Assembly (NCBI GenBank): GCA_001512785.1
Contig: LFSQ01000110.1
Coordinates: 1-45,809 of the forward strand
Reading direction: 5' to 3'
DNA from: Syntrophomonas sp. DTU019
Lineage (GTDB): Bacteria; Bacillota; Syntrophomonadia; Syntrophomonadales; Syntrophomonadaceae
Length of the DNA: 45,809 nt
The position numbers and the translations under genes are program-made. The stretch's first letter is position 1. The number at the start of each line of letters is the position of its first letter. Shown here in pieces: positions 2,042 to 27,782 of this stretch. The notes under the pieces were generated by a model that saw only the letters and a program-made list of their open reading frames with translations, was not told the origin of the DNA and made no database searches.

Positions 2042-5000
2042 CTACGGCCACTCCAGCCTGGATATCAACAGCACCGCTTCTCCACGGGTCAGGTAGTTTT
2101 GCGGTTTGAACACGCTCTGCCAGGTATCCGGCCAAATCCCCCGCTGATAACCTTTAAGTATGGCCGGCTGCGCCCATTCCGGGGCCAGGAGAATATCCCC
2201 CGCCGGTTCAAATAAGCTGCGGCCCTGTGATGTTCCCAGCAGGCGGTAGGCCTTATCCATGATGATGGCCATCTCGCTTCGGGTGGCCGCCTGCTGGGGG
2301 CGAAAGCTGCCATCTTCGTACCCTTTAATCAAGCCCAGGCGGCGGGCTTCTTCTACCCATCCTTTTCCCCACCAGGGAATTAGCTGGTCATCAGCGAACC
2401 CGGTTCTGATCGACGGGTTATCAAGTTGCAGATAACGCGCCAGCAGGCTTACCAATTCCAGACGGGTAATGCTGGCATAAGGCCTGAAGGTTCCATCATC
2501 ATAGCCCTGTATGATCCCCTCCTCGGCAAGTTTCATAACCTGCTGGGCCAGATTGCTATCCTGTATATCAGTGAATTGGGTTCTGGGCGGGCTAAATGGG
2601 GCTACCGCTACCTCCCGGGCATACACCGCACCATTGGCGGTATTGATGGCCACTACCTTAATGCTGTCCTCGCCTGGATTATGGAGCAGAAGCCGGTTGA
2701 AGCGGCCACCGGCTTCGGGCTCAAGCCTGACCCGGCTCTGGTCCTGGCGGTAGACCACGATGCGATCAGCGTCAGTTTCACCTCTTATTATCAAGGCCCC
2801 GTTTAACACCTCGGCCTTAACCTCCAGGCGGGGAGCAGCCGCTCCTGTGTCCTGGTCCCCCTCTATAGCTGCCAGATAGGATTTTCCCCCTTCCCCCGCC
2901 AGGGTGATCAAGCGCACTTTGCGCTTTTCGATCATATCCTCCGGGCTTAAGGCAAAGCCCCCGCTGCTCACCAGTGTTGAGGGCAAACACTGGTACAGGC
3001 TGTCGTCATCCATAACAAACATCTGGGTTACGGCATCGTACTTAACCAGGGTCTTTTCGGCGGTCTCCGCTATAGCGGCCTCATCTACCCGTAATGCCTG
3101 GCTGCCGTCCGGTGCTAAAAGCACCCGTACCCATGATCCGGGCTCAAAGGCGGGTTTGGACAACAGGCTGCCGCTGCGAAAACAGCTGGTCTGTTGATTG
3201 AGCTGGCATTCCTGGATTTGATTGTCTTGATTAAAGAAATACAGGGTTTGGGTATTATCATTGAAATAAATAACCCGGCCGTAGGCCACCTGGCTGTATG
3301 CCTCCAGTTGCAGGAACCTTGATAAACCGGGCAGGTGCATTCCGACCACGTAATCTCCCGGCTGAATGTCTTTCAGGCGGGCCTCGATCCCATCCCGGTA
3401 AATCTGGGTTCCAGGAAACAATGTATAGGAACCCCCATTGTTGAGGTTCAGGGTTTCGGTCTCCAGGGATATACCAGTTACCCTGGCAATCACCAGATCG
3501 CGCTGCACGGTGATGTAATTTACCCACCGTGTTTTCGGGGTTATTACCATTTTGACCTTCATGCCCGGCAGCAGTCCTTCCAGATCGACACTTTGCGCAA
3601 ACCCGTAAGGAATGGCTTCGGCTATGCTGCCGGCGATGCTGTTGCTGACATTAATGGCTGCACCCGGATAGAGCCTGTAAGGCTGGTCATCATTGATAAG
3701 CCAGATCTGGCGGGTGGCATAATCGACTTTTTTGATATAACCCTCTACTGGCGCGGCTGCCGCATTAGCCTGCCACAGCACCTGATAGAGGGGGTTGACC
3801 ACGGCATTTATATGGGCCCCGGTGGGAAAATCATGGGAATTGTCTATGGCTTGGCCATTTACCTGCACCTGACGGGATTCCTGCCACTGCCGGTCCAAAT
3901 AATAACCGCCTTCCCTGGCCTGGGGATTAACCTCCATTATCAGGCTGCCGGTTGATGTGGTCAGCATCTGTACCCCGCCGCTTTCCCAGGTCTGCAAGAA
4001 GAGATAGGAGTTTTTATCATTCCAGTACAATTCCCCTCCGATTTTCGCCTCGGGCCGGTCTGCGGTGAGAATGGTTTTGGTCTGATCATAGTCTACAGAG
4101 CCGGTATAAGCCGTGCCATCCGTGAGCACCAGTTTACCCCCGGACTCGACCGCAACAGTCTCATGCTGCATGGCCTGGCCGTATACCAGGGCATAAGACT
4201 GCCGCGTAAAGCCCTCAGCAAGGCTGGCAGCTTTAACATATATGGTATACTCGCCTTCCCTGGCATTACTTATCACAACCTGTTCGACATTATTCGTGCT
4301 GTCAATCCTGCCGCTGCCGGAAAAATCGTTGCCATAGTGTAATTTCCCTTCCGGGTCTTTCACCACCAGATCAAGGTTATTTACCAGCACCTTTGAGGCC
4401 CCGGCTTCAGAAGGGGGATCGGTCCAGGCCAGGGTAGCTTTGAACAAACCTCCGGCTTTATCCAGGCTGATGTGATATTCGCGGGTCTCTTGTGCTGACA
4501 GGCTGGCCTGGTTGACATATTCCACAGTGCGGTCTTTTACAGGCAATATAGTGCCGGCCAGGTCCAATATGCCAAAGCCCTGTGACGATATGTTATTGGG
4601 ATCAAAACGGGCACCGTTAATCAGTAATGCCTTGATCAAAGCCGCGCTGGGATGGTCAAGATGACGATGAGTCTCAAGGTATTCCCTGAGTAAAGCCACT
4701 GCTCCCGCGGCTACCGCGCTGGCCATGCTGGTGCCGCTCATAGTGATATAAGCCGGGTTGCTTTCGAAATTGCTGGTTACCAGGCTGGAGCATGTCCCCA
4801 CGATGTTGGCACCAGGGGCCAGCAGATCCGGTTTGATGCGTCCATCAGCCGTCGGCCCCCGGCTGGATGATGACAATACCTGGCTGGCATCAACGCTGTC
4901 CATGTCCAGACCAGGCCTGGGCAGCTGGCTGGCACCAACCACCAGGGCATTTTTGCTGTTTGCTTCAGCGCTCAGTGAGCCTTGCGCTGGTCCATTGTTG

Positions 5001-5650
5001 CCGGCTCCAAACAAGACCAGAAAATCAGGATGTTCAGCTATAAACGAGTCTGTCTGGCGGCTGTAACCCCGGTAGCTGTTGCCGGGATTGCCCCAGCCGT
5101 TTACATAAACCCGTACCCCGGCCTGATAAGCCGGGTCGTAGAGCTCCGCCAGGTTAGCGGGAATCCTTAATTCACCGTCTTCATCCAGAAGGGCTTGAAA
5201 ATAGAGTGAACTATCAGGTGCGATACCGTGATATTTACCCTGTGAGGATTTGCCGCTGCCCACCAGTACGCCGGCCATATGTGTGCCATGCCCGGAAGGG
5301 TCATCGGGGATGGCCCGACCAGAAACTGATTTAAGCGAACTGATGCGCGGGGCTTGACCCGTATCGCTGCTCAAGTCAGGATGAATATCACTAAGGCTGC
5401 CGCGATCCAGGCCGTTGTCGGCAATGCCTATCAGCTGGCCTTTGCCGCTTAATCCGCCCGGAATAATAAAGTTGCCCGGGTAAAAAGGGGTGGCATTTAC
5501 AATACCAGCAGCCCGGTCGCTCAGCAGACTGGGCTTGGCCTTTGCTGCAGCCTGCAGCGGCCCCAAACACCATGAACAACCCAGGATAATCATGAATATG
5601 AGAACGAAAACCCTGCTTCGTCTTCTGCCACAAAAACCCGTTTTCAACAT
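2042..5650 (-). CDS. Secreted S8 subtilisin-like protease with SLH cell-wall anchor
   Basis: A 1202-residue exported serine protease. A signal peptide covers about residues 1-36 (RRRSR, hydrophobic core, AAA). The subtilase domain carries Asp78 (GIADNGLD), His121 (GHGTHMAG), the oxyanion Asn218 (GAGNNGP) and Ser308 (SGTSMAS). A beta-sandwich C-terminal domain like that of KP-43-type subtilases follows (about 375-490, ATLAWTDPP and NNLDLVV). Four divergent beta-rich repeats of roughly 65-75 residues occupy about 630-930. Three SLH domains end the protein (from about 1023, 1083 and 1140). SLH domains bind pyruvylated secondary cell-wall polymer, which fits the csaB gene at 25165. The start ATG is preceded by GAGCGGAG. 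The substrate is unknown; it could process surface proteins or feed on exogenous protein. Confidence 0.93.
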   Translation of the reverse strand: MLKTGFCGRRRSRVFVLIFMIILGCSWCLGPLQAAAKAKPSLLSDRAAGIVNATPFYPGNFIIPGGLSGKGQLIGIADNGLDRGSLSDIHPDLSSDTGQAPRISSLKSVSGRAIPDDPSGHGTHMAGVLVGSGKSSQGKYHGIAPDSSLYFQALLDEDGELRIPANLAELYDPAYQAGVRVYVNGWGNPGNSYRGYSRQTDSFIAEHPDFLVLFGAGNNGPAQGSLSAEANSKNALVVGASQLPRPGLDMDSVDASQVLSSSSRGPTADGRIKPDLLAPGANIVGTCSSLVTSNFESNPAYITMSGTSMASAVAAGAVALLREYLETHRHLDHPSAALIKALLINGARFDPNNISSQGFGILDLAGTILPVKDRTVEYVNQASLSAQETREYHISLDKAGGLFKATLAWTDPPSEAGASKVLVNNLDLVVKDPEGKLHYGNDFSGSGRIDSTNNVEQVVISNAREGEYTIYVKAASLAEGFTRQSYALVYGQAMQHETVAVESGGKLVLTDGTAYTGSVDYDQTKTILTADRPEAKIGGELYWNDKNSYLFLQTWESGGVQMLTTSTGSLIMEVNPQAREGGYYLDRQWQESRQVQVNGQAIDNSHDFPTGAHINAVVNPLYQVLWQANAAAAPVEGYIKKVDYATRQIWLINDDQPYRLYPGAAINVSNSIAGSIAEAIPYGFAQSVDLEGLLPGMKVKMVITPKTRWVNYITVQRDLVIARVTGISLETETLNLNNGGSYTLFPGTQIYRDGIEARLKDIQPGDYVVGMHLPGLSRFLQLEAYSQVAYGRVIYFNDNTQTLYFFNQDNQIQECQLNQQTSCFRSGSLLSKPAFEPGSWVRVLLAPDGSQALRVDEAAIAETAEKTLVKYDAVTQMFVMDDDSLYQCLPSTLVSSGGFALSPEDMIEKRKVRLITLAGEGGKSYLAAIEGDQDTGAAAPRLEVKAEVLNGALIIRGETDADRIVVYRQDQSRVRLEPEAGGRFNRLLLHNPGEDSIKVVAINTANGAVYAREVAVAPFSPPRTQFTDIQDSNLAQQVMKLAEEGIIQGYDDGTFRPYASITRLELVSLLARYLQLDNPSIRTGFADDQLIPWWGKGWVEEARRLGLIKGYEDGSFRPQQAATRSEMAIIMDKAYRLLGTSQGRSLFEPAGDILLAPEWAQPAILKGYQRGIWPDTWQSVFKPQNYLTRGEAVLLISRLEWP

Positions 5651-5738
5651 TTATATATCTCCGCTCACAAATTGCAGTTGTCTGGATCCGGCTATCTTCG
5701 AGATCTGCCGTACCGCGGCAACTGCAGGCTGTTGTTTC

Positions 5739-5779
5739 TATAAATATCTATAACTTCTATAAAATTATAAATATCTATA
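5739..5779. repeat. Pair of 14-bp direct repeats upstream of the SLH protease
   Basis: TATAAATATCTATA occurs perfectly at 5739-5752 and again at 5766-5779, a 27-bp period, in the 236-bp gap between the protease and the ComK-like gene. The repeats lie about 90-130 bp upstream of the protease start, where a regulator could bind. They are AT-rich, so chance is not excluded. The rest of the gap holds no other gene-like feature. Confidence 0.5.
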
Positions 5780-5886
5780 TTTACCAACTAATAATCACAA
5801 AAAGTTACATTTGCCATGTTATTACGAATACTTCGCTTATTATCTTGCGCTTTCCTGCCGGCAAAACTTGCTAAGCTGAGAACGCC

Positions 5887-6465
5887 TTATCCATTTTTGC
5901 CCAGTTTTCCCAGCCCAATGTGCAGGAGATCCAGAGAGCCGGCCAGCAGCCGTGCAGCTTCTAACAGCAATTTCTCACCACTTGGGTTTTCACCGGAGCT
6001 CTGCTGTAGATAATCAAACAGCTGCCGCCCCATGTGCAATTGTTGAATCAGCTGGGTAGTGCTGCTCAAGCTGTTCAGCACCAGATTGTGGCGCATTTTA
6101 ATTACAGTGCCCCCGCTGTCCTGTTTGGTGATGCTCTCAACATAACGCCAGTTGATGTAGCCATAACAGGCATCATTTTTGATCAAAGCCTTCCTGACCT
6201 TCACCGGTATGAAAACCCGGCTATTGCTCAGGTAGAAAGGCAGCAGTTTGCGCCTCTGGAAAAAATCCTGCAGACGGCCTTTCTGTTCTTTCAAGTCTAC
6301 TAAATAGCATCTGGCCAGGGCTTTTATGATCGTCCCAACACTGCGCTTCTCCCAAAAATGTTCGCCCTCTTCCAGCAAAATCCTGGTAAGATCGCCAGTT
6401 TCCTCGTAAGAGGGCACAATGCCGATAACCTGCTCTTTTACGGCTTCGATAGGTTTACATGTCAT
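5887..6465 (-). CDS. ComK-like protein (possible competence transcription factor)
   Basis: A 192-residue protein, the same length as Bacillus subtilis ComK. Several stretches can be aligned to ComK from memory: VIGIVPSYEETGDLTRIL with the N-terminal TIAVLPEEIDGK region, LPFYLSNSRVFIPV with PIMVDPSNQIFLFP, CYGYINWRYVESI with CGWISHVHVKEF, and TVIKMRHNLVLNSLSST with the following TMELPISYNSF stretch. ComK is the DNA-binding master regulator of competence in bacilli. I chose ATG 6465 because GAGGGGG lies just upstream; an in-frame start at 6567 would add 34 residues without a ribosome site. No competence genes are adjacent. The next gene downstream on the same strand is the SLH protease. Family assignment is by eye and only moderately certain; the function here is unknown. 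Confidence 0.5.
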   Translation of the reverse strand: MTCKPIEAVKEQVIGIVPSYEETGDLTRILLEEGEHFWEKRSVGTIIKALARCYLVDLKEQKGRLQDFFQRRKLLPFYLSNSRVFIPVKVRKALIKNDACYGYINWRYVESITKQDSGGTVIKMRHNLVLNSLSSTTQLIQQLHMGRQLFDYLQQSSGENPSGEKLLLEAARLLAGSLDLLHIGLGKLGKNG

Positions 6466-6627
6466 TGGCAGCCCCCTCTTTAAATATGAAATTGGCCGCA
6501 GCTGAGCTCGAAGCATGATTATGATATGATATTCGTCCCAATAAGGGCATGTTCCAAAATATGCCAACCAAAGGGCTTAATGATGCAGATTTCAGGCCTA
6601 AAAGCAGGACTGTTTTATTCAGAGGCT

Positions 6628-7641
6628 TTACCAGTTCTCGCTTTGATGCCATTTCCAGGCGGATGCGACTATGTCCTGCAGTTGGGGATATTGGGGCTGC
6701 CAGCCGAGCTCGTCCATAGCCCTCTGGGAGCTGGCCAGCAGTATGCTGGGATCGCCGGGCCGGCGCGGGCCTATGTCGTATTCCAGCTGTCTCCCGGAAA
6801 TAGCCTCGACCGCAGCGATAACCTCCCGTACCGAATGGGGCCGTCCATTTCCCAAATTATAAACCCGTTCGGTAATGTTCCCTTTCAGCAAGGCCTGCAG
6901 GGCCAGCAGATGGGCCTGGGCCAGATCGCTGACATGAATGTAATCCCGCAAACAAGTCCCGTCAGGGGTGTCGTAATCATCGCCGAAAACGGTGAACTGT
7001 GACTTTTTGTTCATAGCCCGCAATATGACCAGTGGAATCAGGTGTGACTCCTGACGATGTTTCTCGCCGATTAAGGCACTGTTGTCGGCTCCGGCGGCAT
7101 TAAAGTAGCGCAGCGAAACGTAATTCAAGCCGTAATTAGCCCTGTAGCGGGGCAGCATGAATTCTATCATCATTTTGCTCATTCCATAAACATTGGTGGG
7201 TCTTAAAGGGTGATCCTCTGTGATAGGGGTTTGCAACGGCTGTCCATAGACCGCCGCAGTTGAGGAGAATACCAGGTGGTTTACCCGGTTGCGCTTCATG
7301 CTGTTCAACAAATATATGGTCTGAGCAGTGTTGTTGGTGAAATACTTGGCGGCATCCTGCATCGATTCCCCCACCTCGCTGAAAGCGGCCAGGTGCACTA
7401 CCGCCTCGATGTGGTGCTGTTGACAGATGGAATCCAGCAGGGTTTCATCACCGCAGTCTCCAACTGCCAGCTCGATTCTGCCCGATCCCGGGATAGCCTT
7501 TAATAGGGTGTGCAATGCATCAACTGCCGCACGGTTTCCCGTAGAAAAGTTATCCAGTATTATCACATCGTAACCGGCCTGAGCGATCTCCTTCACTACA
7601 TGCGAACCGATATATCCTGCTCCTCCAGTTATTAAAATCAT
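6628..7641 (-). CDS. galE: UDP-glucose 4-epimerase
   Basis: A 337-residue extended short-chain dehydrogenase that interconverts UDP-glucose and UDP-galactose (or their N-acetyl forms) with bound NAD. It shows the N-terminal nucleotide site GGAGYIGSH (residues 6-14), the SSTAAVYG strand, the YGMSK catalytic Tyr-Lys motif (near 150), the substrate loop around NVYG and RYFNAAGA, and a typical C-terminus (LGWQPQY). AGGAGG lies six bases before the ATG. It follows the nucleotidyltransferase gene by 48 bases on the same strand, so it may be the last gene of the 7690-13005 operon. It would supply galactose-type sugar nucleotides to the polysaccharide locus. Confidence 0.95.
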   Translation of the reverse strand: MILITGGAGYIGSHVVKEIAQAGYDVIILDNFSTGNRAAVDALHTLLKAIPGSGRIELAVGDCGDETLLDSICQQHHIEAVVHLAAFSEVGESMQDAAKYFTNNTAQTIYLLNSMKRNRVNHLVFSSTAAVYGQPLQTPITEDHPLRPTNVYGMSKMMIEFMLPRYRANYGLNYVSLRYFNAAGADNSALIGEKHRQESHLIPLVILRAMNKKSQFTVFGDDYDTPDGTCLRDYIHVSDLAQAHLLALQALLKGNITERVYNLGNGRPHSVREVIAAVEAISGRQLEYDIGPRRPGDPSILLASSQRAMDELGWQPQYPQLQDIVASAWKWHQSENW

Positions 7642-7689
7642 ATTATTCCTCCTATTTCGTCTCGCTGAAGCGGAATCCAGGAATGTACC

Positions 7690-8892
7690 TCAACCCGAGC
7701 GCCGCTGGTTGATAAACTCTTCACCTGCCCGGTACAGCAAATAGAAAGGCTGCCACCAGCGCCATGCTAGCTTAAACTCCTCATTGCGCCAGTGTGAGAC
7801 CGCCTCGGGGTTAAACAGGTAATAACCTAATACCCTGCACTTGTCGCGCATTTTTAAGGGTAGCATGATATAGGCCAGGTATTGCCCTTTTTTGCTGGAC
7901 TGGTTTAATAACCGGCGCCGATAAAAAGAATATTCACCGGGTAAAGCCTTGCCGCTCCAAAAGAACTGCCAGGGTGGCACTCCTTCGGCCTTGAGCCCGG
8001 TTTCATCCTCCACCATACGTAAGATGACGGCAATTACCTTGCGGTTATCAGCGGTCCCGGCTGTCTGCCAGATGAAATCCCAATCCAGCTCTGCACCCAC
8101 TTTTTCGAGCATAAGACATATATCCAAAAGCCACTTAACTCCCTGGAATTGGTGATGCAGTGCAAAATGGCTGGCTATATGCAGGAATTGCATTTCCCAG
8201 CTTAAGACAGAGAAATTCCAAAGGCCAACCCGGGCTCTGCGTTGGTATTGCATCCATGGGTATTCCTCAACGGGAAAAAGCGCCTTTAAAGGCGAACCTT
8301 CCCATAGCCCGTCTATACCCCAGTGTATGTCTACATTTATGTTGATCTTGCCCAGCGATTTAACAAAATGCATTTCAGTGAAATAAGCCTCAGAAATCCT
8401 CAAGAAATCTTCCAGGGAACCACGATAATCGGCAGTCGCCGGGGTTTGATAGCCAGCCTTGACTAATATTTCTCGTACTCTTGCATAATCCGAGCGGTAA
8501 ATATAGATATCAATATCACTTATAGGCCTTATACCACTATCTTCATATAGCTGATCAACCAGAGAAAAACCCTTTAAAATCAGGTATGGGATACTGTGCT
8601 CTTCAAAAGCCGTAGTGATTTTCCTGCCTTCCCTTTCATAAACCGCATTTTGCAGGGCGATTACCTGAGCTGCTGCTTTTAAGCCATGCCGCAATTCAAC
8701 CGGCAGACCCCATTCCGGGTGAGCCCGGAGCTGATGGTAAAAAAACCCGGCCAATCCATGGCTAATAATACCTTTGATGATGTCGGTTTGATTGCCTTGC
8801 CGCCATTCCCGGAATAGTGCTCTGCTGTCTGAGTTGCCGAAATATACGCGTAGAAAAGTGGCAATAAATTGGTTAGCACACTTATTAGCCAT
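7690..8892 (-). CDS. Nucleotidyltransferase family protein (NTP_transf_5-like)
   Basis: A 400-residue protein of the uncharacterised nucleotidyltransferase family found in many RiPP and exopolysaccharide clusters. A nucleotidyltransferase core is visible: LILKGFSLVDQLYEDSG followed by RPISDIDIYI, giving the metal-binding pair Asp126 and Asp128. The C-terminal half is helical, with a characteristic SHFALHHQFQGVKWLLDI stretch. Homologues accompany lasso peptide clusters of the paeninodin type, where they have been linked to tailoring, but the exact reaction for this protein cannot be read from sequence. It begins two bases after the radical SAM gene (GAGGG overlapping its end), so the two are translationally coupled and belong to the operon starting at 13005. 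Confidence 0.8.
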   Translation of the reverse strand: MANKCANQFIATFLRVYFGNSDSRALFREWRQGNQTDIIKGIISHGLAGFFYHQLRAHPEWGLPVELRHGLKAAAQVIALQNAVYEREGRKITTAFEEHSIPYLILKGFSLVDQLYEDSGIRPISDIDIYIYRSDYARVREILVKAGYQTPATADYRGSLEDFLRISEAYFTEMHFVKSLGKININVDIHWGIDGLWEGSPLKALFPVEEYPWMQYQRRARVGLWNFSVLSWEMQFLHIASHFALHHQFQGVKWLLDICLMLEKVGAELDWDFIWQTAGTADNRKVIAVILRMVEDETGLKAEGVPPWQFFWSGKALPGEYSFYRRRLLNQSSKKGQYLAYIMLPLKMRDKCRVLGYYLFNPEAVSHWRNEEFKLAWRWWQPFYLLYRAGEEFINQRRSG

Positions 8893-8894
8893 TT

Positions 8895-10316
8895 TTATCC
8901 CTCAAAAAATTCCCGATGTGAAGAGTTTCTGTTTATCTTCATTTCAAAGAAATCCCACAAGCGTTCGACATTGTTGGATCGAATGAGATTAAGCCGCCTG
9001 CGTCTCCGGATATAGGGCATATAGTTGCGCTCCATCCAGGCTTGCCTTTCGGCTGGGGGAATCTCGGATAACTGCTGATTATTATAATAATCCTGGACTA
9101 TTTCCCTGCTCCAGGGCATGTTTTCAAATACCCCTGGCCTGAGGCGCTGATACAACCTGGTTCCAGGATGAACCTGCAATGGCGACCAGCTAAAAGAAAA
9201 AACCCGCATTTTTTTTAGCCAGGCCAAGCGCTGCTCCAGATCAGATATGGTTTCACCCTCTACGCCAGTCAGCATATAGGCATGTATTTTCATGCCCTCC
9301 TGCTGGCAGATTTTTATGGCACGTTCATTGATCTCCACCGTGCTATCCTTGTGCATGGAATCGAGGGTCTGCTGAGAAGCCGACTCTATCCCCATTTCGA
9401 TGAGAACGCAACCTGCCTGCTTTAGCCTCCTTACCACTTCGGGTTCAATGTGGTCAGCCCGGGCTTGTATAGCCCAAATCAGGTGGCGCTGTAAACCGCG
9501 TTTGATCATCAGGTCACATATGGCTTCAACCCGAGAACGGCTTATCAGGAAATCGTTATCGTGAAAATAAATACCCTCAACCCCATAATCTCGATACACC
9601 TTGCCAAGCAGTTCCACTACATATTCTGGACTGTGAAAGCGCACCCCTTTGCCATAGGTCAATGATTCTGTACAGAATTCGCATTTTTTCACACAGCCGC
9701 GCGAGGTCAGTAAGGATATGGTTGAAACATAATGATGCCTGATGGTTTCTAATCCCCGGTTAAGATAGTATGATAAATCAAGGCTGGAAAAATCGGGAAA
9801 AGGCAGCTTATCCAGGTCAGTGATGGGCTCTGCTGGATTACTCCTGATCTGGCCGTTGTCACGCCACCATAAACCGGGGATGTCAGCAGCTTTGGCGCCC
9901 TCAACGAAACGCAGCAGAGAATACTCTCCCTCTCCAGTTATTACCGCATCCAGTTCGGGAATCTTTTGCAGTGTGGCTTCAGGAAGGGCGGTTACGTGAT
10001 GCCCTCCGGCCAGTAATGGTCCCGTGTAAATCTGGCGTATCAAGCCAGCGGTTTCAACCAGGTCATAAACCAGGGGGGAAACGGCATTTATCCCGATCAA
10101 ATCGGGTTTAAACTCGGTAATAGTCTGCAGCATGGCTTTATCAATCAAGGCTTGGTTGCCGCCCAGTTTGTATTGCGCGGCAAATCGATCCATAATTTTG
10201 ACCTCATGTCCCGCTTGTTTCAGCAGGCCTGCCAGGTAGGGGAGACTCAGGGGCACCCAGCTCGATGGTGGCATGGTTTTATAGCTGGCATAAGGGTAGA
10301 TTAACAGGATTCTCAT
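8895..10316 (-). CDS. B12-binding-domain radical SAM protein
   Basis: A 473-residue radical SAM enzyme. Residues 1-140 form a cobalamin-binding-like Rossmann domain (ILLIYPYAS, SLPYLAGLLKQAGHEV, ITGEGEYSLLRFVEG). The radical SAM domain follows, with the cluster-binding CxxxCxxC triad Cys208, Cys212, Cys215 in SRGCVKKCEFC. GIYFHDNDFLISR and the later MGIESASQQTLDSMHK segment are typical of the Elp3/MiaB-like subgroup. Cobalamin radical SAM enzymes commonly methylate or rearrange unactivated carbons; the substrate here is not known. The B12 domain lacks an obvious DxHxxG, so cobalamin may not be held in the classical base-off mode. It lies between the DUF362 and nucleotidyltransferase genes in the RiPP operon, so it is a candidate peptide- or glycan-modifying enzyme. 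Confidence 0.85.
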   Translation of the reverse strand: MRILLIYPYASYKTMPPSSWVPLSLPYLAGLLKQAGHEVKIMDRFAAQYKLGGNQALIDKAMLQTITEFKPDLIGINAVSPLVYDLVETAGLIRQIYTGPLLAGGHHVTALPEATLQKIPELDAVITGEGEYSLLRFVEGAKAADIPGLWWRDNGQIRSNPAEPITDLDKLPFPDFSSLDLSYYLNRGLETIRHHYVSTISLLTSRGCVKKCEFCTESLTYGKGVRFHSPEYVVELLGKVYRDYGVEGIYFHDNDFLISRSRVEAICDLMIKRGLQRHLIWAIQARADHIEPEVVRRLKQAGCVLIEMGIESASQQTLDSMHKDSTVEINERAIKICQQEGMKIHAYMLTGVEGETISDLEQRLAWLKKMRVFSFSWSPLQVHPGTRLYQRLRPGVFENMPWSREIVQDYYNNQQLSEIPPAERQAWMERNYMPYIRRRRRLNLIRSNNVERLWDFFEMKINRNSSHREFFEG

Positions 10317-10328
10317 TTCTCAAGGCTC

Positions 10329-11258
10329 CTAATATTGCAGCAGCTGATACTGCTGCCAGTCATTCACCGGCCATACCCGGGCAGCGTGTTCCAGCTGTGG
10401 CATATCTAAAGGATTTTCACGAAAATGTTCCAGACAGTTATGCTGTTGCTTGAGCCTATACAATTCCTGGTAAGCTTGATAATCGACTGCAGCGGGGTGA
10501 TCGCCGATGAGGAGCAAATCAGCCGGACAGGTAGCGCCCCTGGCCGGGCCGCCACTTATCATTGCCATCCTGCCATCGATTACGGTGAGGTCAGCCATAA
10601 CTGCCAGGTTTATCTCCACTGTTTTCTGCTGCAGGTTGTCCTTATGCATGCTGATTCTCTCCAGGGGATGCATATAACCGACCGCGGCTTTCAAAGCCAG
10701 GCTATAGTCTGCCAGACAGTGCGTTTTTAGGTTGGTTAGATTTATTACCCGGTCGACCTCATATAAAAGCCCGGGAACCGTAACCTTATCCAGATACTGT
10801 CCCGGTATAGCGACCTCAACCCACTCCAATTCATCAAAAAAGACCAGACTGGCCAAACCGGCAACAGCAACATCCAGGCCGATACGGCGGGCAACGCGGC
10901 GGGTTGGCAGGCTATTGACTGCGGAACAATCCCCGACCAGGATTTCACCTGCCCCGCTTTTTTGCAAAAAATGCAGGAATTCTCGCAAAAAAACCGGGCA
11001 TGTGGAGGCAGGATAAGGATCTGCGCTGTTAAGGTTGATTTTCACCAGAATGCTCTGCCCTTTAAACCAATTCGCCCACAACTGTTGCCAGGCAGATTCA
11101 ACTGCTGTCCAGTAGTGGTCTGAATTGGAAATGCGCAATACTGCAGGTGGCCTTTCCTTTAACAAGGCTTGCCGGGGCCTGGCAGTCCCCTTGACCTGCT
11201 TATTTTTTAAAACCTTTGGCCTCATTTGTTTTCGGACCAATCGGAGGATCTTTTTCAT
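10329..11258 (-). CDS. DUF362 domain-containing protein
   Basis: A 309-residue protein of the DUF362 family. The recognisable parts are ILVKINLNSADPYPASTCP (about residues 70-88, the family's substrate-entry motif), GAGEILVGDCSA, and LTNLKTHCLADYSLALKAAVGYMHP in the middle. No CxxCxxCxxxC ferredoxin domain is present, unlike many clostridial DUF362 proteins. The family's biochemical role is not established. The N-terminus is very basic (MKKILRLVRKQMRPKVLKNK), perhaps a nucleic-acid or membrane contact. It starts five bases after the kinase stop and ends twelve bases before the radical SAM start, so it is embedded in the RiPP operon and is probably needed for the same product. Confidence 0.8.
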   Translation of the reverse strand: MKKILRLVRKQMRPKVLKNKQVKGTARPRQALLKERPPAVLRISNSDHYWTAVESAWQQLWANWFKGQSILVKINLNSADPYPASTCPVFLREFLHFLQKSGAGEILVGDCSAVNSLPTRRVARRIGLDVAVAGLASLVFFDELEWVEVAIPGQYLDKVTVPGLLYEVDRVINLTNLKTHCLADYSLALKAAVGYMHPLERISMHKDNLQQKTVEINLAVMADLTVIDGRMAMISGGPARGATCPADLLLIGDHPAAVDYQAYQELYRLKQQHNCLEHFRENPLDMPQLEHAARVWPVNDWQQYQLLQY

Positions 11259-11263
11259 AGCAA

Positions 11264-12268
11264 TTAATCCTCTGCCAGAGACTGCAGCAAAGCCACAAAT
11301 CGGTCCATGTCGGTACCGAATTCAAGCTGGTAACAGGGAACTGAGGAAAGAAAGTCCATCAGAAAGTTAAACCTTTTTATAGCGGCTGGTTTGCTTTCAT
11401 AGGGTTTCATGGTAACCGGGAAAAACTCTCCCACCACCCGGGTGGGATTGATCCTTATCAAGCGGCTCTGCGGGGTGCCGGATTGGTTAATGACCAGAAA
11501 GTTATTTATCCTGGTATCTGCTAACCAACTGCCCGGGCTTATCGTCCGGCAATTATAATAATGATCATCATCGATAGTAGCATAAGCCTTCTCCGGCAAT
11601 AGAGCGGGGAAAAACAACTTTCGAGCCTTTTCCCGGATTTTAATGATATCGGATATACTGCAGCCCCGATAACCATTATCGGAATGATAAAGCAAAACAC
11701 GTTCGTCGGATAAGACTTTAAAACCATGCTGTAAAAGGGCAAATATAGCCGTCGACTTGCCACGCCCGCTGTTGCCGCTAAGCATAATCCCATTTCCGTT
11801 AAATTGCACACAGGAGGCATGTACAGAAAAATAGTTGTATTTAATCATAAGCTGGTTTATTAAGTTATAAGCAAAGAGTAAATCGGTATACAAAGACAAG
11901 ATATCATTATGGCTGAAGAGCAGGACTTTAGCGGTTCCATGTAAATAGTCCACATAGGTGCGGGCGTAGCCTTCATAATCAGTCCATTGCTCGGTGTTGC
12001 CCAGATAAGTGTGCATGGTTACGTGGCGATTGAGCCTTAAGGTAAAATCTGGAATCTTTAATTGTGCTTCAGGCAGAGGCATGAGGCGATCAACATATTC
12101 CGCCTCAACAACCTGCAGATCCAGACACAAGTGCGCCGTGCCACCCTGGCCTTCGGGCATGCTTAAAAAATCGCTTATCCTTTTAAGCCACTCAGGCTGA
12201 TTGCACTTGATGCAAATAGTATGTCCTGAAAGTTCATACCACTTTATCTGTGAATCCTGATGGGTCAT
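11264..12268 (-). CDS. HPr-kinase-related kinase of the RiPP cassette
   Basis: A 334-residue P-loop kinase related to HPr kinase/PEPCK. Walker A is GNSGRGKST at residues 165-173, preceded by the family's VHASCV stretch (His150) and followed by LSDERVLLY (Asp188, Glu189), which coordinate metal and phosphate acceptor in HprK. The N-terminal half is not related to the HprK regulatory domain. Homologous kinases in paeninodin-type lasso clusters phosphorylate the C-terminal serine of the precursor. Neither precursor here ends in serine, so the acceptor may differ (Ser in the core, or another molecule). ATG 12268 is chosen because the B2 gene ends at 12273 with GGAAGGG in its last codons. A start at 12376 would overlap B2 by over 100 bases. 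Confidence 0.85.
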   Translation of the reverse strand: MTHQDSQIKWYELSGHTICIKCNQPEWLKRISDFLSMPEGQGGTAHLCLDLQVVEAEYVDRLMPLPEAQLKIPDFTLRLNRHVTMHTYLGNTEQWTDYEGYARTYVDYLHGTAKVLLFSHNDILSLYTDLLFAYNLINQLMIKYNYFSVHASCVQFNGNGIMLSGNSGRGKSTAIFALLQHGFKVLSDERVLLYHSDNGYRGCSISDIIKIREKARKLFFPALLPEKAYATIDDDHYYNCRTISPGSWLADTRINNFLVINQSGTPQSRLIRINPTRVVGEFFPVTMKPYESKPAAIKRFNFLMDFLSSVPCYQLEFGTDMDRFVALLQSLAED

Positions 12269-12272
12269 AGCA

Positions 12273-12713
12273 TTACCCTTCCAAAAAAACGGTATACCGG
12301 TCCAATAATCCGGGTTCTTCATTGAAAGGCTGTCCGTCCAGCATAAGCCAGCTATGGCCCAGCAAGTCCGAGCCATCCTTCCTAACCCCTACAACTACCC
12401 GGGTGCACAGTCCCTGGGCTGCCGACCAGTGATACAAAACCAGGCTGCGCCGCAGACAAGGTCGCGTACTTCGGCCGATGCGGGTCAACCAAAAGGTAGC
12501 ACCCCGATAAATTTTGTCCATAGTCTGAAGCTGGGCCACTGTAGGTGGTTTACTATCTGATTCCAGCCGTACCTTATTATTGGAGTGAATCCTCTTAAGA
12601 ATCTCGGGTAAAGGGCGGAAGCGGATCAAACAATCATAGTAAAGAAGTAAGCCCCCTATCCAGGCTAATAAATATATATCCCGGGGAAAACTATATCCTT
12701 TGTATTGCCACAC
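12273..12713 (-). CDS. Lasso-peptide B2-type protein, transglutaminase-like leader protease
   Basis: A 146-residue protein of the lasso peptide biosynthesis B2 family, a cysteine protease of transglutaminase fold that removes the leader from RiPP precursors. The family core is clear: RPCLRRSLVLY (catalytic Cys86), VGVRKDGSDLLGHSWLMLDG (His120 and Asp126). I take GTG 12713 as start because GGGG precedes it at good spacing; an in-frame TTG at 12764 overlaps the PqqD gene and lacks a ribosome site. It follows the PqqD-type gene (B1), the usual split B1/B2 arrangement in Firmicutes. Leader removal next to a Thr at -2 is typical for this enzyme class, and both candidate precursors have T-x-G. Confidence 0.88.
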   Translation of the reverse strand: MWQYKGYSFPRDIYLLAWIGGLLLYYDCLIRFRPLPEILKRIHSNNKVRLESDSKPPTVAQLQTMDKIYRGATFWLTRIGRSTRPCLRRSLVLYHWSAAQGLCTRVVVGVRKDGSDLLGHSWLMLDGQPFNEEPGLLDRYTVFLEG

Positions 12714-12747
12714 AACTACATCCCCAATATTAGACTTACAGCATATT

Positions 12748-13005
12748 TTATAGCAATAATTCAAACCGGGTTAGTGTATTAACTAATTCCTCGATATCCC
12801 GTGCTAAAACCTCCCGCTCAACTTCATATTCCTCCAGCATCTGGTCGATAATTTCATCAATCGTGGTCTTTCCGTCTACTTTATTCCAAAAAGAGCAGGC
12901 AACTTTGTTTAGGCCAAAGTACCTGCCGGTTACCGGGTTGAGTAAAACCGTTTCTCCATCAACCTCACGCCAGATTACGTCTTGGTTTTTTATTAAGACC
13001 CGCAC
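12748..13005 (-). CDS. PqqD-family RiPP recognition element (lasso B1-type)
   Basis: An 85-residue PqqD-like protein. The winged-helix RRE fold is recognisable: VIWREVDGETVLLNPVTGRYFGLNKVACSFW forms the three-stranded sheet that binds leader peptides, followed by helices IDEIIDQMLEEYEVEREVLARDIEELVNTL. Such proteins present a precursor to the B2 protease by gripping its Y-x-x-P leader motif. Start GTG with AAGGGGG eight bases upstream. It is the first gene of the minus-strand RiPP operon, opposite to the two candidate precursors, and a good extended -10 promoter lies about 60 bases upstream. Confidence 0.9.
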   Translation of the reverse strand: MRVLIKNQDVIWREVDGETVLLNPVTGRYFGLNKVACSFWNKVDGKTTIDEIIDQMLEEYEVEREVLARDIEELVNTLTRFELLL

Positions 13006-13045
13006 CGGTTAACCCCCTTGTTTCTCCATAATTTTCAAAAATAAA

Positions 13046-13074
13046 TTTACAATAAACTGCAAAAATTATATCAT
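13046..13074 (+). promoter_or_regulatory. Candidate promoter for the precursor peptides
   Basis: TTTACA (13046-13051), 17-base spacer, TATCAT (13069-13074), five of six matches in each hexamer. It would give a leader of about 120 bases before the first peptide. It overlaps the minus-strand promoter for the PqqD gene, so the two directions could compete. Of the 13006-13503 interval, 13006-13189 shows only promoter-like sequence; the rest is filled by two peptides and a hairpin. Confidence 0.35.
13065..13073 (-). promoter_or_regulatory. Extended -10 promoter of the RiPP modification operon
   Basis: On the minus strand the sequence reads TGATATAAT, a perfect extended -10 element (TGnTATAAT). 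It lies about 60 bases upstream of the PqqD-type start codon, giving a short leader. No good -35 is visible, as is normal for extended -10 promoters. The operon driven from here would run through the PqqD, B2, kinase, DUF362, radical SAM and nucleotidyltransferase genes and perhaps galE. Confidence 0.55.
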
Positions 13075-13202
13075 ATGCTTATACATATTTGTGCATAGGA
13101 GCAAGGCGGTCCCGTCAAAATAAATAACCGGTGCACGTATAGCCTGAAGCTTTGTTGAGACTCCGCAGGCGGTTTGAATATAAGAAATAAGGAGGGAATA
13201 GA

Positions 13203-13295
13203 ATGGCAAAACAGGATTATGAAACCCCAAGCGTTGTAGTATATGAAGACTTACGGGATGTTACCGCAGGAATGCCTTCCGAAGGAGGGACTTAA
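13203..13295 (+). CDS. Candidate RiPP precursor peptide A
   Basis: A 30-residue peptide, too short for routine gene calling. AAGGAGGG six bases before the ATG is one of the best ribosome sites in the window. Residues 2-9 read AKQDYETP and contain the Y-x-x-P motif recognised by PqqD-type RREs. VVVYEDL and then T21-A22-G23 follow. In lasso leaders a Thr at -2 precedes a Gly at +1, so the predicted core is G23 to T30, GMPSEGGT. That is only eight residues, with Glu at core position 5 rather than 7-9, so a classical lasso ring is not possible. Its close paralogue lies 22 bases downstream. Confidence 0.75.
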   Translation: MAKQDYETPSVVVYEDLRDVTAGMPSEGGT

Positions 13296-13317
13296 TGTGG
13301 CTAGGAGGAACGAAGTA

Positions 13318-13419
13318 GTGCGAAAACAGGAATATGATACTCCGGTAGTCATAAATTATGAGGACTTAATCAACACTACTGGCGGAGAATATAACATTTC
13401 AGACAATGGGCTTGGATAA
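13318..13419 (+). CDS. Candidate RiPP precursor peptide B
   Basis: A 33-residue paralogue of peptide A; GTG start with AGGAGG at 13303-13308, nine bases upstream. Aligned without gaps, the two share M-x-KQ-[DE]-Y-[DE]-TP, V at 11, YEDL at 14-17, Thr21 and the T-x-G step, while the C-termini differ completely, the pattern of a conserved leader with a variable core. The predicted core begins after T20-T21 or as T20-T21-G22 depending on register; with Thr at -2 it is GGEYNISDNGLG (12 residues), with Asp at core position 8, the position used for Gly1-Asp8 lasso macrolactams. Only four residues would remain as tail, shorter than known lassos. A hairpin follows. Confidence 0.75.
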   Translation: MRKQEYDTPVVINYEDLINTTGGEYNISDNGLG

Positions 13420-13435
13420 TGGTAACTACAGGACA

Positions 13436-13489
13436 GGGGAAAATTCATTTGTCTTATCACTAAGGTGGTAAGGCAAACAAATTTTCCCC
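13436..13489. terminator. Long hairpin between precursor peptides and glycosyltransferase
   Basis: GGGGAAAATT (13436-13445) pairs perfectly with AATTTTCCCC (13480-13489), and the stem continues inward with a few mismatches (TTTGTCTTA against TAAGGCAAA) to a CAC-TAAG-GTG tip. Downstream on the plus strand is TAATTCTATTAC, only moderately U-rich, but the A/T part of the stem supplies U on both strands. It lies 16 bases after the second peptide and 14 bases before the end of the convergent glycosyltransferase, so it probably terminates both directions. Confidence 0.65.
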
Positions 13490-13503
13490 TAATTCTATTA
13501 CTT

Positions 13504-14641: not shown

Positions 14642-15769
14642 TTACCCTTTTAATATTTCCTGATAAACCGCCATAGTTGCCCGGGCGGTGTTGTGCCAGC
14701 TAAACATGGCCGCTCGTTGACAGCCCTGGGCCTGTAAACGGTTCCGCAATGTTGGGTCAGAAAGCAGCATATCAACCTTCTCGGCGATATCAGCAGTCTG
14801 CAGCGGGTTCACATAAAGGCCGGCGTCACCGACCACTTCCGGCAAAGAAGTGGTATTGGATACTACCACTGCGGTTCCACAGGCCATGGCTTCCAGTGGA
14901 GGCAATCCAAAGCCTTCGTAAAGCGAGGGAAACACAAGCATTTCCGCACCACAGTACAGGCTGTGCAAATCCTTATCTGAACAGTTTTCATATTCTCGAA
15001 CCATATTCAGTCCCAGCTGCTTTTTCACCATATCCACCTCATCGGGCAAGACAGTACGCTTACCGGCGATAACCAGTTGCAAAGCGGGATATTTTTCAAG
15101 CAGCATGGCATAGGCCTTTAACAATCTTTTCAGATTCTTGTGCGGGGACCGGTTGCCCACAAACAATAAATAGTGCTGCAGATGGTGTCGAGCTTTAAAA
15201 GCTTTTATCTCCTGATGTGGCAGGGGGAAGAATTCAGGCGACACTCCCAAGGGAATAATCCGGATTTTTTCCTGCAATGCCGGGTCGGGATATGATTGCA
15301 GCAGGTCGCGCGCGGTAGCCTGGGAAACGGTGATAATCCTCCCGGCCTTCTTTAAGCTATTCTCTAGCACCATTTTCCCTGCCCTATGCTTTAAGGGGTT
15401 ACGCGGACCCATGCGTTTAAGTTTAAACGGTATCAGGTCGTGAACAGTTACCACACTATTTGCCGGCAGGTTCCAGGGTGCGTTGAAGTGTGGTATATGC
15501 ACTAAATCCACATCTCTGTGTTTGTTAATGACCTGCATGCCTTTTAGTCGCTCAGCAATACTGAATATGGGAGCTTCAAAAACAGCTGTTTCAATTTGCT
15601 TCTGCTGTACCTCGCCCAGCTGGCCAATAAATTCTTGATTATGGATTGAAAAACCAGCCAACACCACTTGAAGTTGTGGATAGTCTGTAAGCATTGTGGC
15701 AGTTAGCATGTAAATATACCGGCCAATGCCGGAAATTCTAATCATACGGCTATCCAGTAAAATCCTCAT
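14642..15769 (-). CDS. Glycosyltransferase family 4
   Basis: A 375-residue GT4 enzyme. The motifs are typical: SRMIRISGIGRYI near the N-terminus, SVVTVHDLIPFKL, YLLFVGNRSPHKNLKRLLKAY at the start of the donor domain, and VFPSLYEGFGLPPLEAMACGTAVV with the two catalytic Glu residues, followed by GDAGLYVNP. The pattern resembles the mannosyltransferase-B/WbdB group. It lies between the glycosylphosphotransferase gene (79 bases upstream) and the second GT4 (4 bases downstream), so it acts in the same repeat-unit assembly. No convincing ribosome site is seen before its ATG. Confidence 0.9.
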   Translation of the reverse strand: MRILLDSRMIRISGIGRYIYMLTATMLTDYPQLQVVLAGFSIHNQEFIGQLGEVQQKQIETAVFEAPIFSIAERLKGMQVINKHRDVDLVHIPHFNAPWNLPANSVVTVHDLIPFKLKRMGPRNPLKHRAGKMVLENSLKKAGRIITVSQATARDLLQSYPDPALQEKIRIIPLGVSPEFFPLPHQEIKAFKARHHLQHYLLFVGNRSPHKNLKRLLKAYAMLLEKYPALQLVIAGKRTVLPDEVDMVKKQLGLNMVREYENCSDKDLHSLYCGAEMLVFPSLYEGFGLPPLEAMACGTAVVVSNTTSLPEVVGDAGLYVNPLQTADIAEKVDMLLSDPTLRNRLQAQGCQRAAMFSWHNTARATMAVYQEILKG

Positions 15770-15848
15770 CAGCTAAATACTTCTCACCACATTAATTGTT
15801 TAGTGCTGCTTTTTATTTGAAGTCGATATCGCCAATGTTCCATTCGCG

Positions 15849-17375
15849 CTAGTATGCTCCCTTGCGGTTTAACACAATCCCTACAGTTCTGAATAACAGG
15901 GAAATATCCAGCCACAATGACCAGTTGCGTACATACCATGATTCCATCAAAACGCGCTCCTGGTAATCAATATCGCTGCGGCCGCTTACCTGCCACAGAC
16001 CGGTCATTCCCGGCGAAACCATCATATAGTCCCGGGCCGCATCACCAAAGCGTTCCATTTCTTCAGCTATTATGGGACGCGGTCCTACCAGGCTCATCTC
16101 ACCTTTAAGCACGTTGATCAACTGGGGAATTTCGTCCAGGCTGGTCTGGCGAAGAATCCTTCCTATTCGTGTGACCCGGGGGTCATGCTTGAGTTTGAAG
16201 TCCCGGTTCCATTCCTCCTGCAATTCTGGATTATCTTCGAGCAACTGCGGCAATAATTCCTGAGCGTTCATCACCATGCTGCGAAACTTGTAACAGTTGA
16301 ATGGCACGCCATTCTTACCCAGCCTTTTATGAGCAAATAATGTTGGCCCCGGGCTTTCGATACGGATCAATATCGCTATAAGCAGGAGCAGGGGGGCTAA
16401 CAGCATTATCAACAGGCTGCCTGCGATAATGTCAAAAGCCCTTTTGCCGATTACGTTAATGCGGCTGGCCAAATTATTGCGGGTTCTGAATGCCAGCAGG
16501 CGTTCGTTAAAGAAGTATTCCGCTTCCCCGCCAATAACGGGAATACCTGCCAGATCAGGAACCACCAGAATAGAACGGGTATACGGCTGCACCTGATTGA
16601 CCACTGATACCAGCTGCGGCCCTAGCAGATCCGGCGCAGCTATTACCAAGTGGCGAATCCCATACTTATGCAGCACTGATGGCAAATCCCCTATAGATCC
16701 CAAAACCAGGTATTCCTGATCATTTATATGAACAACCCCGGTATCATCTGCAGGGTTCATCGTAATCAAGCCGCAGACTGTATAACCCAGATAATGATCT
16801 TTGGATAAAGCCTCCACAATCATGCGGGCCTGTGCCCCGGTGCCGGCAATTAGGCAGGGTTCATTCCACAAGCCGGTTTTCTTCAGCATAGTCTTTGTCA
16901 AGAAGCGCCCTAACGGGACTGCCGGAAGTGCTAGTAGATATCCCACCAGCAATACGGTTCTGGAAACCTCACCGCCCAATTTCATCAAAGATACAATAGC
17001 AAAAGCAAGAATGAAGGTTAAAGTCACCGCGCGGATCACTTTCCTGCTTTCCTGCCAAAAGGGCAGACGTGTCGTATACAGGCCTTCATAGTACATACAC
17101 AGCAAGTACAGTCCCAGAATAGCCCAGCCGTAATCAGTAAGGTTTTCCGGGAGTTTATCGGGAAAGTACGGGTATATCAGGGGCAAAAGCCCTAGTCTTA
17201 TCTGTATGCTGGCAGCCAAGACCAGCACCATGCTGAGGAGATCCACTGCTGTCAAAGCGATGATAGCTGCGCATTTGCGCAGTATCTGAGGCATAGTTGC
17301 CCAGGCAATGGAATTCAACGACTCCGCTATTTCCGGAGTGGGATTGCTGATAGTACTAGCCTCCATTTGATTCAT
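15849..17375 (-). CDS. Polyprenyl glycosylphosphotransferase (exopolysaccharide initiating enzyme)
   Basis: A 508-residue WbaP/CpsE-type enzyme that transfers a sugar-1-phosphate from a nucleotide sugar to undecaprenyl phosphate, the first step of repeat-unit synthesis. The N-terminal third has four to five membrane segments (about 33-165), followed by a Rossmann-like CoA-binding-type domain (about 170-300). The bacterial sugar transferase domain starts at KRAFDIIAGSLLIMLLAPLLL and shows FAHKRLGKNGVPFNCYKFRSM, TSLDEIPQLINVLKGEMSLVGPRP and SPGMTGLWQVSGRSDIDYQERV. With galE in the locus, a galactose- or N-acetylgalactosamine-type first sugar is plausible. It begins 34 bases after the polymerase/ligase gene. 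Confidence 0.93.
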   Translation of the reverse strand: MNQMEASTISNPTPEIAESLNSIAWATMPQILRKCAAIIALTAVDLLSMVLVLAASIQIRLGLLPLIYPYFPDKLPENLTDYGWAILGLYLLCMYYEGLYTTRLPFWQESRKVIRAVTLTFILAFAIVSLMKLGGEVSRTVLLVGYLLALPAVPLGRFLTKTMLKKTGLWNEPCLIAGTGAQARMIVEALSKDHYLGYTVCGLITMNPADDTGVVHINDQEYLVLGSIGDLPSVLHKYGIRHLVIAAPDLLGPQLVSVVNQVQPYTRSILVVPDLAGIPVIGGEAEYFFNERLLAFRTRNNLASRINVIGKRAFDIIAGSLLIMLLAPLLLLIAILIRIESPGPTLFAHKRLGKNGVPFNCYKFRSMVMNAQELLPQLLEDNPELQEEWNRDFKLKHDPRVTRIGRILRQTSLDEIPQLINVLKGEMSLVGPRPIIAEEMERFGDAARDYMMVSPGMTGLWQVSGRSDIDYQERVLMESWYVRNWSLWLDISLLFRTVGIVLNRKGAY

Positions 17376-17409
17376 GCTAAATCCCGCTTTTCTTAAGTTA
17401 TTATTACAA

Positions 17410-19866: not shown

Positions 19867-19951
19867 TATATTTCCTCCCCTGCTGCCTGCTCAGATGCCT
19901 GCCATAACCTGTTTATTCCATAAAACTAGCATATCTCCTCTATTAGACGAT

Positions 19952-19987
19952 AAAAACCCTGCCTGTTAGCCAAATACAGACAGGGTT
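19952..19987 (-). terminator. Intrinsic terminator after the amidase gene
   Basis: On the minus strand AACCCTGTCTG pairs with CAGGCAGGGTT (one G-U) across an 11-base loop and is followed by a T-run (A at 19952-19956 on the plus strand). It separates the amidase transcript from the downstream polysaccharide operon, which therefore probably has its own promoter in 19867-19951. I could not pick one out there. Confidence 0.85.
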
Positions 19988-20014
19988 GGCAAATTATCGG
20001 CAAGAATAGGCGTT

Positions 20015-22363: not shown

Positions 22364-22394
22364 CGATCAGGCCTCCCCTTTTGAAGTGCAAAAT

Positions 22395-22516
22395 AGCCAG
22401 GTTGCTGTCTGGCTTGGCTTATATGCCTTCATATCTGCTATGCGGGCGCATAGCAATGGCATTATGAAAGTGCAGTTAATTCGACAGGTTGTGGCTTATT
22501 GCCCGGTCTAACCTGT
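22395..22516 (-). other. Leader of the amidase gene with three hairpins
   Basis: The 294-bp gap 22364-22657 holds no gene. In the part transcribed ahead of the amidase there are three perfect short inverted repeats: 22484-22490 with 22510-22516 (ACAGGTT/AACCTGT), 22437-22443 with 22448-22454 (GCTATGC/GCATAGC, GGGC loop) and 22395-22400 with 22409-22414 (AGCCAG/CTGGCT). The last is followed on the minus strand by ATTTTG, weakly terminator-like. No known riboswitch consensus was recognised. Confidence 0.35.
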
Positions 22517-22551
22517 TATATATACATAGAAGCACAGTGGGAACTTTCAGC

Positions 22552-22582
22552 ATTATAGGAAAAAATCGCGAATGGTGTTCAA
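22552..22582 (-). promoter_or_regulatory. Candidate promoter of the amidase gene
   Basis: A perfect TATAAT on the minus strand (22552-22557) with a weak -35, TTGAAC (22577-22582, spacer 19) or the overlapping TGAACA (spacer 18). Transcription would begin near 22545 and give a leader of about 180 bases containing the three hairpins. Confidence 0.35.
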
Positions 22583-22657
22583 AAGTCATAAATCTCAGTA
22601 TGTACTGGCACACTGCCTTAAATGCTTAACGTCATGGCCTTACCGGCACTCAGGCGG

Positions 22658-23869: not shown

Positions 23870-23893
23870 ATTCGTGACTCCTATGAAGCATTA

Positions 23894-24952: not shown

Positions 24953-24987
24953 TCGATAGCTCCTCCCCCGAGTCCGAAGCTAGGTTC

Positions 24988-25016
24988 ATTCTAACACCGC
25001 TGTTTTAGCTTGTCTA
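24988..25016 (-). promoter_or_regulatory. Sigma-A promoter of the WecA-LCP genes
   Basis: Minus strand TAGACA (25011-25016), 17-base spacer, TAGAAT (24988-24993), five of six matches in each hexamer with ideal spacing. It lies 36 bp from the start codon of the WecA/TagO gene, back to back with the plus-strand promoter for csaB. Confidence 0.6.
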
Positions 25017-25079
25017 TACGGCAAGCAAATGATAAAACCGTGTCATCAGGTGACGAAAGCTGAGCAATCAGCAGATATA

Positions 25080-25108
25080 TTGCTATCATTCAGGCCTAGT
25101 AATATAAT
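25080..25108 (+). promoter_or_regulatory. Sigma-A promoter of the csaB operon
   Basis: TTGCTA (25080-25085), 17-base spacer and a perfect TATAAT (25103-25108). The predicted transcript begins near 25115, downstream of the in-frame ATG at 25111, which supports ATG 25165 as the true csaB start. Confidence 0.55.
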
Positions 25109-25164
25109 TAATGAGATGGTCCGGGGCTAGCCTAGACCATTTAATTTTAGCGAGGAGCAGCTTA

Positions 25165-27777: not shown

Positions 27778-27782
27778 GAGCG

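Follow-up and report, generated by a model that had tools for sequence, protein, structure and literature searches.

What might a lasso-peptide toolkit produce in a locus that lacks the cyclase defining lasso biosynthesis? The question arises from positions 7690-13419 of a 45,809-nucleotide window (the whole stretch analysed, contig LFSQ01000110.1 of Syntrophomonas assembly GCA_001512785.1). Here the original prediction placed a lasso-like cassette for a ribosomally synthesized and post-translationally modified peptide (RiPP) and offered two explanations: a lasso-derived pathway whose product is not a lasso, or a cyclase encoded elsewhere. Our analysis favours the former. We consider it likely that this is a self-contained RiPP cassette that derives from the lasso/paeninodin toolkit, omits ring closure and yields a short linear Ser-phosphorylated peptide. 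Gene content, conservation in three families, cyclase absence, leader spacing, a conserved Ser and active-site residues were all observed here.

Six enzyme genes run along the minus strand from 13005 to 7690, with intergenic gaps of ~34, 4, 5, 12 and 2 nt in gene order. They encode a PqqD-family RiPP recognition element (RRE, or B1; 12748..13005; PF05402, 1.5e-20), a B2 transglutaminase-like cysteine leader peptidase (12273..12713; PF13471, 6.8e-14; NF033537 lasso_biosyn_B2 over cut-off; start uncertain, GTG at 12713 proposed), an HprK-like peptide serine kinase (11264..12268; PF07475, 4.6e-8, 0.1 bit below cut-off), a DUF362 protein with a predicted LarA-like fold (10329..11258; PF04015, 1.7e-39), a B12-binding radical S-adenosylmethionine (SAM) enzyme (8895..10316; PF02310 and PF04055, with a CVKKCEFC motif) and an NTP_transf_5 nucleotidyltransferase (7690..8892; PF14907, 8.6e-46), a family also present in paeninodin and linear polyphosphorylated peptide (LPP) clusters. 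Two precursor genes, A1 and A2 (30 and 33 residues), are divergent from this operon. Pfam and NCBIfam matches and open reading frames (ORFs) thus bear out the predicted RRE, B2, HPr-kinase-like kinase, nucleotidyltransferase and two leader-bearing peptides, as well as the placement of a cobalamin-type radical SAM enzyme and a DUF362 protein inside the operon.

The cyclase is absent from the window, as predicted: no window gene carries an SGGLDSS-type signature, and the sole six-frame match to SGG[LIV]D[SA] lies near 22650 in an unrelated frame. Three lasso loci searched likewise as a control do show the SGGLDS motif. Across the window's own genome (G000, a 155-contig draft, 92.8% complete), a search for Asn_synthase returned two weak partial matches only, to a LarE-like protein beside LarB and an MnmA-like PP-loop protein. 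The cyclase is missing throughout the four cassette genomes examined: no full-length Asn_synthase protein was found in G000, in two genomes of the same genus (G001 and G002, the latter 100% complete and with its cassette deep inside a 1.1 Mb contig) or in one from another family (G226, 99% complete), and G001, G002 and G226 likewise gave weak partial matches only. Lasso cyclases of the control loci score 80-102 bits against Asn_synthase. UBA1368 (G011) and G003, a genome of the window's genus, have one full-length protein each, at 300-311 bits, resembling true asparagine synthetases.

We compared these loci with B2 genes across a phylum sample of 399 genomes, 12 of which have B2 at E < 1e-6, two of them cassette genomes (G000 and G226). 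In 9 of the 10 others, a lasso cyclase (tblastn E 1e-100 or better) lies within ~3 kb of B2. These nine lasso-type loci show no DUF362 or radical SAM match and carry longer, canonical precursors where precursors were recognised; in a B2 tree, their proteins split from the cassette proteins with support of 100/100. Because the sampled lasso loci have a cyclase and lack DUF362 and radical SAM genes, the cassette is a distinct system and not an assembly gap. A genome-wide B2 scan of named genomes matched only three Syntrophomonas metagenome-assembled genomes (MAGs), a sign of low sensitivity, and whole-genome profile searches were then used. The tenth genome, G359, holds a different cyclase-less set (L064; G359:C1:1909501-1929500, ~2560-10510) with a SPASM radical SAM protein, B2, an HprK-like kinase, NTP_transf_5 and the peptide MSKKIYVKPEIIEIGNLETVVLSGGRSSSRCRTWCR; two neighbouring large proteins may be ABC transporters.

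A1 (13203..13295, plus strand) starts at an ATG after AAGGAGGG, behind the ribosome-binding site aaggaggg, and joins the leader MAKQDYETPSVVVYEDLRDVTA to the core GMPSEGGT. Its leader has the lasso motif with a Tyr-to-Thr spacing of 15, and cleavage is predicted after T-2 A-1. A2 (13318..13419, plus strand; GTG start, ribosome-binding site aggagg) is a paralogue of A1 with identical spacing, the leader MRKQEYDTPVVINYEDLINTTG and the core GEYNISDNGLG, which also contains a Ser. A 58-residue ATG ORF from 13243 was considered as the second peptide and dropped in favour of the GTG start at 13318 behind AGGAGG. Homologues of A1 occur in five other genomes. We assembled 14 precursors from six genomes, chosen by leader motif and excluding a frameshifted DTU019 peptide. 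All 14 show the lasso leader pattern Y-17 xxP-14 x L/V-12 with Thr-2, and in all 14 the Tyr and Thr are exactly 15 residues apart, the published lasso spacing from Tyr-17 to the penultimate leader residue at -2 (PMC10368454). Whole precursors span 26-34 residues and predicted cores 5-13. All cores contain a Ser between positions 3 and 6, a pattern that none of 20000 trials reproduced when residues were shuffled among cores. Lasso cores run to ~15 residues or more with Asp/Glu at positions 7-9; these have no consistent acid at 7-9 and are too short to form the ring, loop and tail of a lasso.

The prediction also suggested looking for similar neighbourhoods in relatives, and the PqqD-B2-HprK-DUF362-radical SAM set indeed recurs in Syntrophomonas, G226 and G501. 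Syntrophomonas sp. DTU019 and UBA4807 carry the complete set along with two or three short peptides. In G226 (locus L041) the set is rearranged and a GT2-like gene lies within it; its flanks carry ribosomal-protein and molybdopterin genes, and no polysaccharide locus surrounds it. In G501, from a third family, a 4.8 kb contig (locus L082) carries a cut PqqD gene, B2, kinase, radical SAM, DUF362 and two peptides, that is, all but NTP_transf_5. Among ~530 genomes, DUF362 relatives at E < 1e-80 occur only in these cassettes, and a search of plasmids and viral contigs gave no DUF362 match. UBA1368 has a minimal form (locus L015; G011:C18, 307-2425) of two short peptides, PqqD, B2 and kinase only; DUF362, radical SAM and NTP_transf_5 genes are not on the contig, and neither a strong DUF362 relative nor LarC was found genome-wide.

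Active-site residues are preserved. The closest solved relative of the RRE is the lasso RRE TbiB1 (1.2e-15). In the cassette RRE, D70, N33 and V35 are invariant across four relatives; by numbering, Asp70 and Asn33 are the counterparts of LppB residues holding the leader Tyr and Pro kink (PMC13381572). Where lasso kinases have their His-Lys-Asp-Asp set (PMC9266682), the window's kinase has His, Lys (P-loop GNSGRGKST) and Asp-Glu; cassette kinases keep the His and P-loop Lys, with Asp-Asp or Asp-Glu as the acidic pair. B2 shares its Cys and His with lasso B2 proteins. Four relatives all have Glu at His+12, a candidate for the third triad residue, whereas the sampled lasso B2s differ there. For the radical SAM enzyme there is no curated equivalog: the best NCBIfam models are BchE (158 bits) and HpnJ (139 bits), the RiPP enzyme ApyD is among the better-scoring ones, and we dropped any assignment of its reaction from these models because every score falls far below its curated cut-off.

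By homology, then, the RRE would grip the leader through Tyr-17 and Pro-14, and the HprK-like kinase would phosphorylate the single conserved Ser of the 5-13-residue core, as the homologous kinases BsfK and LppK do at core Ser3 (PMC10368454, PMC13381572). NTP_transf_5, the B12-radical SAM enzyme and the LarA-fold DUF362 protein would further modify the peptide at or near this Ser, although the bonds that they would make are guesswork. B2 would cut after Thr-2/X-1, releasing a short linear peptide.

Could this instead be a true lasso pathway whose cyclase lies elsewhere or was missed in a draft genome? The fragmentation and incompleteness of G000 leave room for such a gap, and B1, B2 and the leader are of lasso type. 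Yet the cyclase is also missing from the 100% and 99% complete genomes and across families, whereas true lasso loci have it beside B2, and cores of 5-13 residues could not form ring, loop and tail. We therefore reject this explanation as extremely improbable. Nor do we accept a decayed lasso cluster of leftover genes with no working pathway, which we judge very improbable: presence is patchy (G003, of the same genus, has no cassette) and one DTU019 precursor is frameshifted, but the enzyme genes are all open, their products share 53-79% identity within the genus and do not vary at their catalytic residues, the set recurs in three families, and the peptides are intact with good ribosome-binding sites. 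That frameshift (L016:14032-14150) falls shortly before the leader end and may be real decay or a MAG error. The lasso-derived pathway with a non-lasso product is thus the part of the original prediction that stands, given a cyclase-less set in three families, exact lasso leader spacing and cores too short for a lasso.

Two further explanations accept a working cassette and differ over its product or its membership. The peptide may be a scaffold or carrier whose Ser is turned into a small molecule, as happens to residues in PQQ and mycofactocin, or primes a glycan, with the rest of the core dispensable; in Syntrophomonas it would feed the surrounding polysaccharide locus. We regard this as unlikely but worth weighing. 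Ser alone is conserved in cores that can be only 5 residues long, no exporter was seen, and a GT2-like gene lies within the G226 cassette; on the other hand, no polysaccharide locus surrounds that cassette, LPP as a precedent passes through a phosphopeptide intermediate, and no trimming protease was seen besides B2. Alternatively, the radical SAM and DUF362 enzymes could serve polysaccharide or lipid metabolism, their place in an operon with the peptide genes being a matter of chance. The nearest radical SAM models, BchE and HpnJ, are not RiPP-specific, and the operon lies within a polysaccharide locus, but in G226, which lacks polysaccharide surroundings, and in G501 both genes accompany B1-B2-kinase and peptides, and ApyD is among the better models; chance sharing therefore seems improbable. 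Several points weigh against a self-contained, modified-peptide pathway all the same. The peptides were hand-picked by leader motif, which builds part of the spacing into the selection (the core Ser played no part in it), and the 14 precursors are related to one another. Kinase and B2 profile scores are modest, and no exporter is apparent in the cassette. Since UBA1368 has peptides, B1, B2 and kinase without DUF362, some loci can do without the extra enzymes. Finally, the RRE, B2, kinase and NTP_transf_5 form a set shared with lasso and LPP clusters, which leaves only DUF362 and the radical SAM enzyme, recurring beside RRE, B2 and kinase, as the distinctive part.

A literature search found no paper describing this gene set. 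The closest precedent is the LPP family of Bacilli (Popov et al. 2026; PMC13381572), RiPPs made with HprK and NTP-transferase proteins but no cyclase; its description means that the general idea of such a RiPP is not new. The two share a discrete RRE, an HprK-like kinase, an NTP transferase, a YxxP leader, several precursors per locus, the lack of a cyclase and, often, proximity to capsule genes. They differ in peptidase (SipW-like signal peptidase in LPP, B2 here; no SipW-like peptidase is among the cassette genes, with no genome-wide search made), in the MsbA-like exporter of LPP, of which none was seen among the cassette genes, and in precursor length (35-200 versus 26-34 residues). The LPP leader reads YxxPxVLxHQxIxFETxxS; leaders here read YxxPx(V/L)xxYEDLxxxT, with YxxPx[VLI] followed by Tyr/Phe and an acidic-Leu/Met stretch and then T-2. 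The cassette also adds DUF362 and the B12-radical SAM enzyme.

Paeninodin-type lasso clusters likewise have B1, B2, an HprK-like kinase, NTP_transf_5 and a Tyr/Trp-xxP leader with Thr-2. The cassette, however, lacks a cyclase, has too short a core and its own B2 branch, and the Ser that its kinase may target sits close to where the core begins instead of at the C terminus. The Bradymonas Bsf lasso (PMC10368454) resembles it in RRE-assisted kinase action on core Ser3, YxxPxL at -17 to -12, B2 cleavage and a kinase and nucleotidyltransferase in the cluster, but has a cyclase, an ABC transporter and an Asp8 ring. Because two defining lasso features, the macrolactam cyclase and the core length and acid, are lacking even though RRE and B2 are present, and because the LPP exporter and leader are likewise lacking and the peptidase is another, the cassette is best filed as a variant beside LPP, a member of neither class.

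The cassette may explain part of the pool of lasso-like RREs that occur without a cyclase: RRE-Finder detected almost 8,000 lasso-like RREs, of which ~4,000 co-occur with a peptidase and cyclase, and noted radical SAM co-occurrence (PMC7470986). Several earlier-reported lasso clusters, in a list including Syntrophomonas wolfei, were undetected or without needed enzymes on re-inspection (PMC4289311). Outside Bacilli, the lasso RRE/B2/kinase toolkit has been turned to another use, on peptides that are short and apparently linear, in a defined gene set for probing the roles of NTP_transf_5, DUF362 and B12-radical SAM enzymes on substrates of 26-34 residues.

What, then, might DUF362 contribute? 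In the literature we found, DUF362 has no assigned reaction and no established cofactor use; here a peptide is its likely substrate and a cofactor is suggested by fold. A sequence search in PDB gave chance matches only, and a fold search was used instead. The structural model (mean predicted local distance difference test score 66.6, four sequences in the alignment) matched 17 PDB entries in Foldseek at E < 0.001, all of the LarA family (E 3e-5), the lactate racemase superfamily of nickel-pincer nucleotide enzymes. In LarA, Lys184 tethers the cofactor, and His200 also has a role. The catalytic His is His174 (PMC12611868), and DUF362 shares Pfam clan CL0471 with the LarA domain DUF2088 (PMC11770544). 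In profile alignments, DUF362 His180 and Lys190 fall on the His and Lys of the LarA H-x9-K motif, with weak hhalign E-values of 0.054 and 0.027, and the later His follows at nearly equal distance in both. DUF362 is nonetheless a separate family of weak sequence similarity (hhalign E 0.027, a single comparison). All 12 DUF362 proteins compared have His180, Lys190 and His205, and since these proteins include non-cassette ones, the residues are a family feature and not cassette-specific. The H-x9-K...H signature is common to ordinary DUF362 proteins (L030-L037), so the cofactor question concerns the whole family.

The window's own genome is probably able to make the nickel-pincer cofactor: LarB, LarE and LarC lie together on contig C23 (L018, L107), and a separate LarA lies on C2 (L092). 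LarC is present in 5 of 5 DUF362-cassette genomes but also in 10 of 18 others; we set it aside as a test of nickel-pincer use, since LarA itself is present in all five and the result, though consistent with such use, is not diagnostic. That DUF362 is a nickel-pincer, LarA-type enzyme that works with its B12-radical SAM partner on the phosphorylated Ser region of a linear peptide of 5-13 residues is a speculative and quite improbable proposal. If true, the nickel-pincer nucleotide cofactor would have its first RiPP pathway, and this branch of DUF362 its first function.

Around the cassette, the window forms a polysaccharide/S-layer locus (2042-5650 and 14642-29822) with genes for an SLH-domain subtilase, a Bac_transf sugar transferase, Wzy, LytR-CpsA-Psr (LCP), a WecA-like transferase, a pyruvyl transferase, MurJ and DUF5693. 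Neither the cassette nor its annotated neighbours include an ABC transporter gene, in scans that covered part of the window's genes. Just past the peptide genes, a hairpin (13421..13502; minimum free energy -35.3 kcal/mol, z -6.6) is probably a terminator that ends the peptide transcript, acting two-way with the convergent glycosyltransferase gene; a consensus terminator scan did not list it. At its other end, the operon runs on into galE, encoding UDP-glucose 4-epimerase (6628..7641, minus strand; TIGR01179, 422.7 bits). galE adjoins the operon in two Syntrophomonas relatives too, but tblastn found no match in the G226 region, and GalE is probably not part of the cassette core. Next to it, positions 5887-6567 encode a 226-residue protein with no Pfam or NCBIfam match that is kept beside galE in two relatives.

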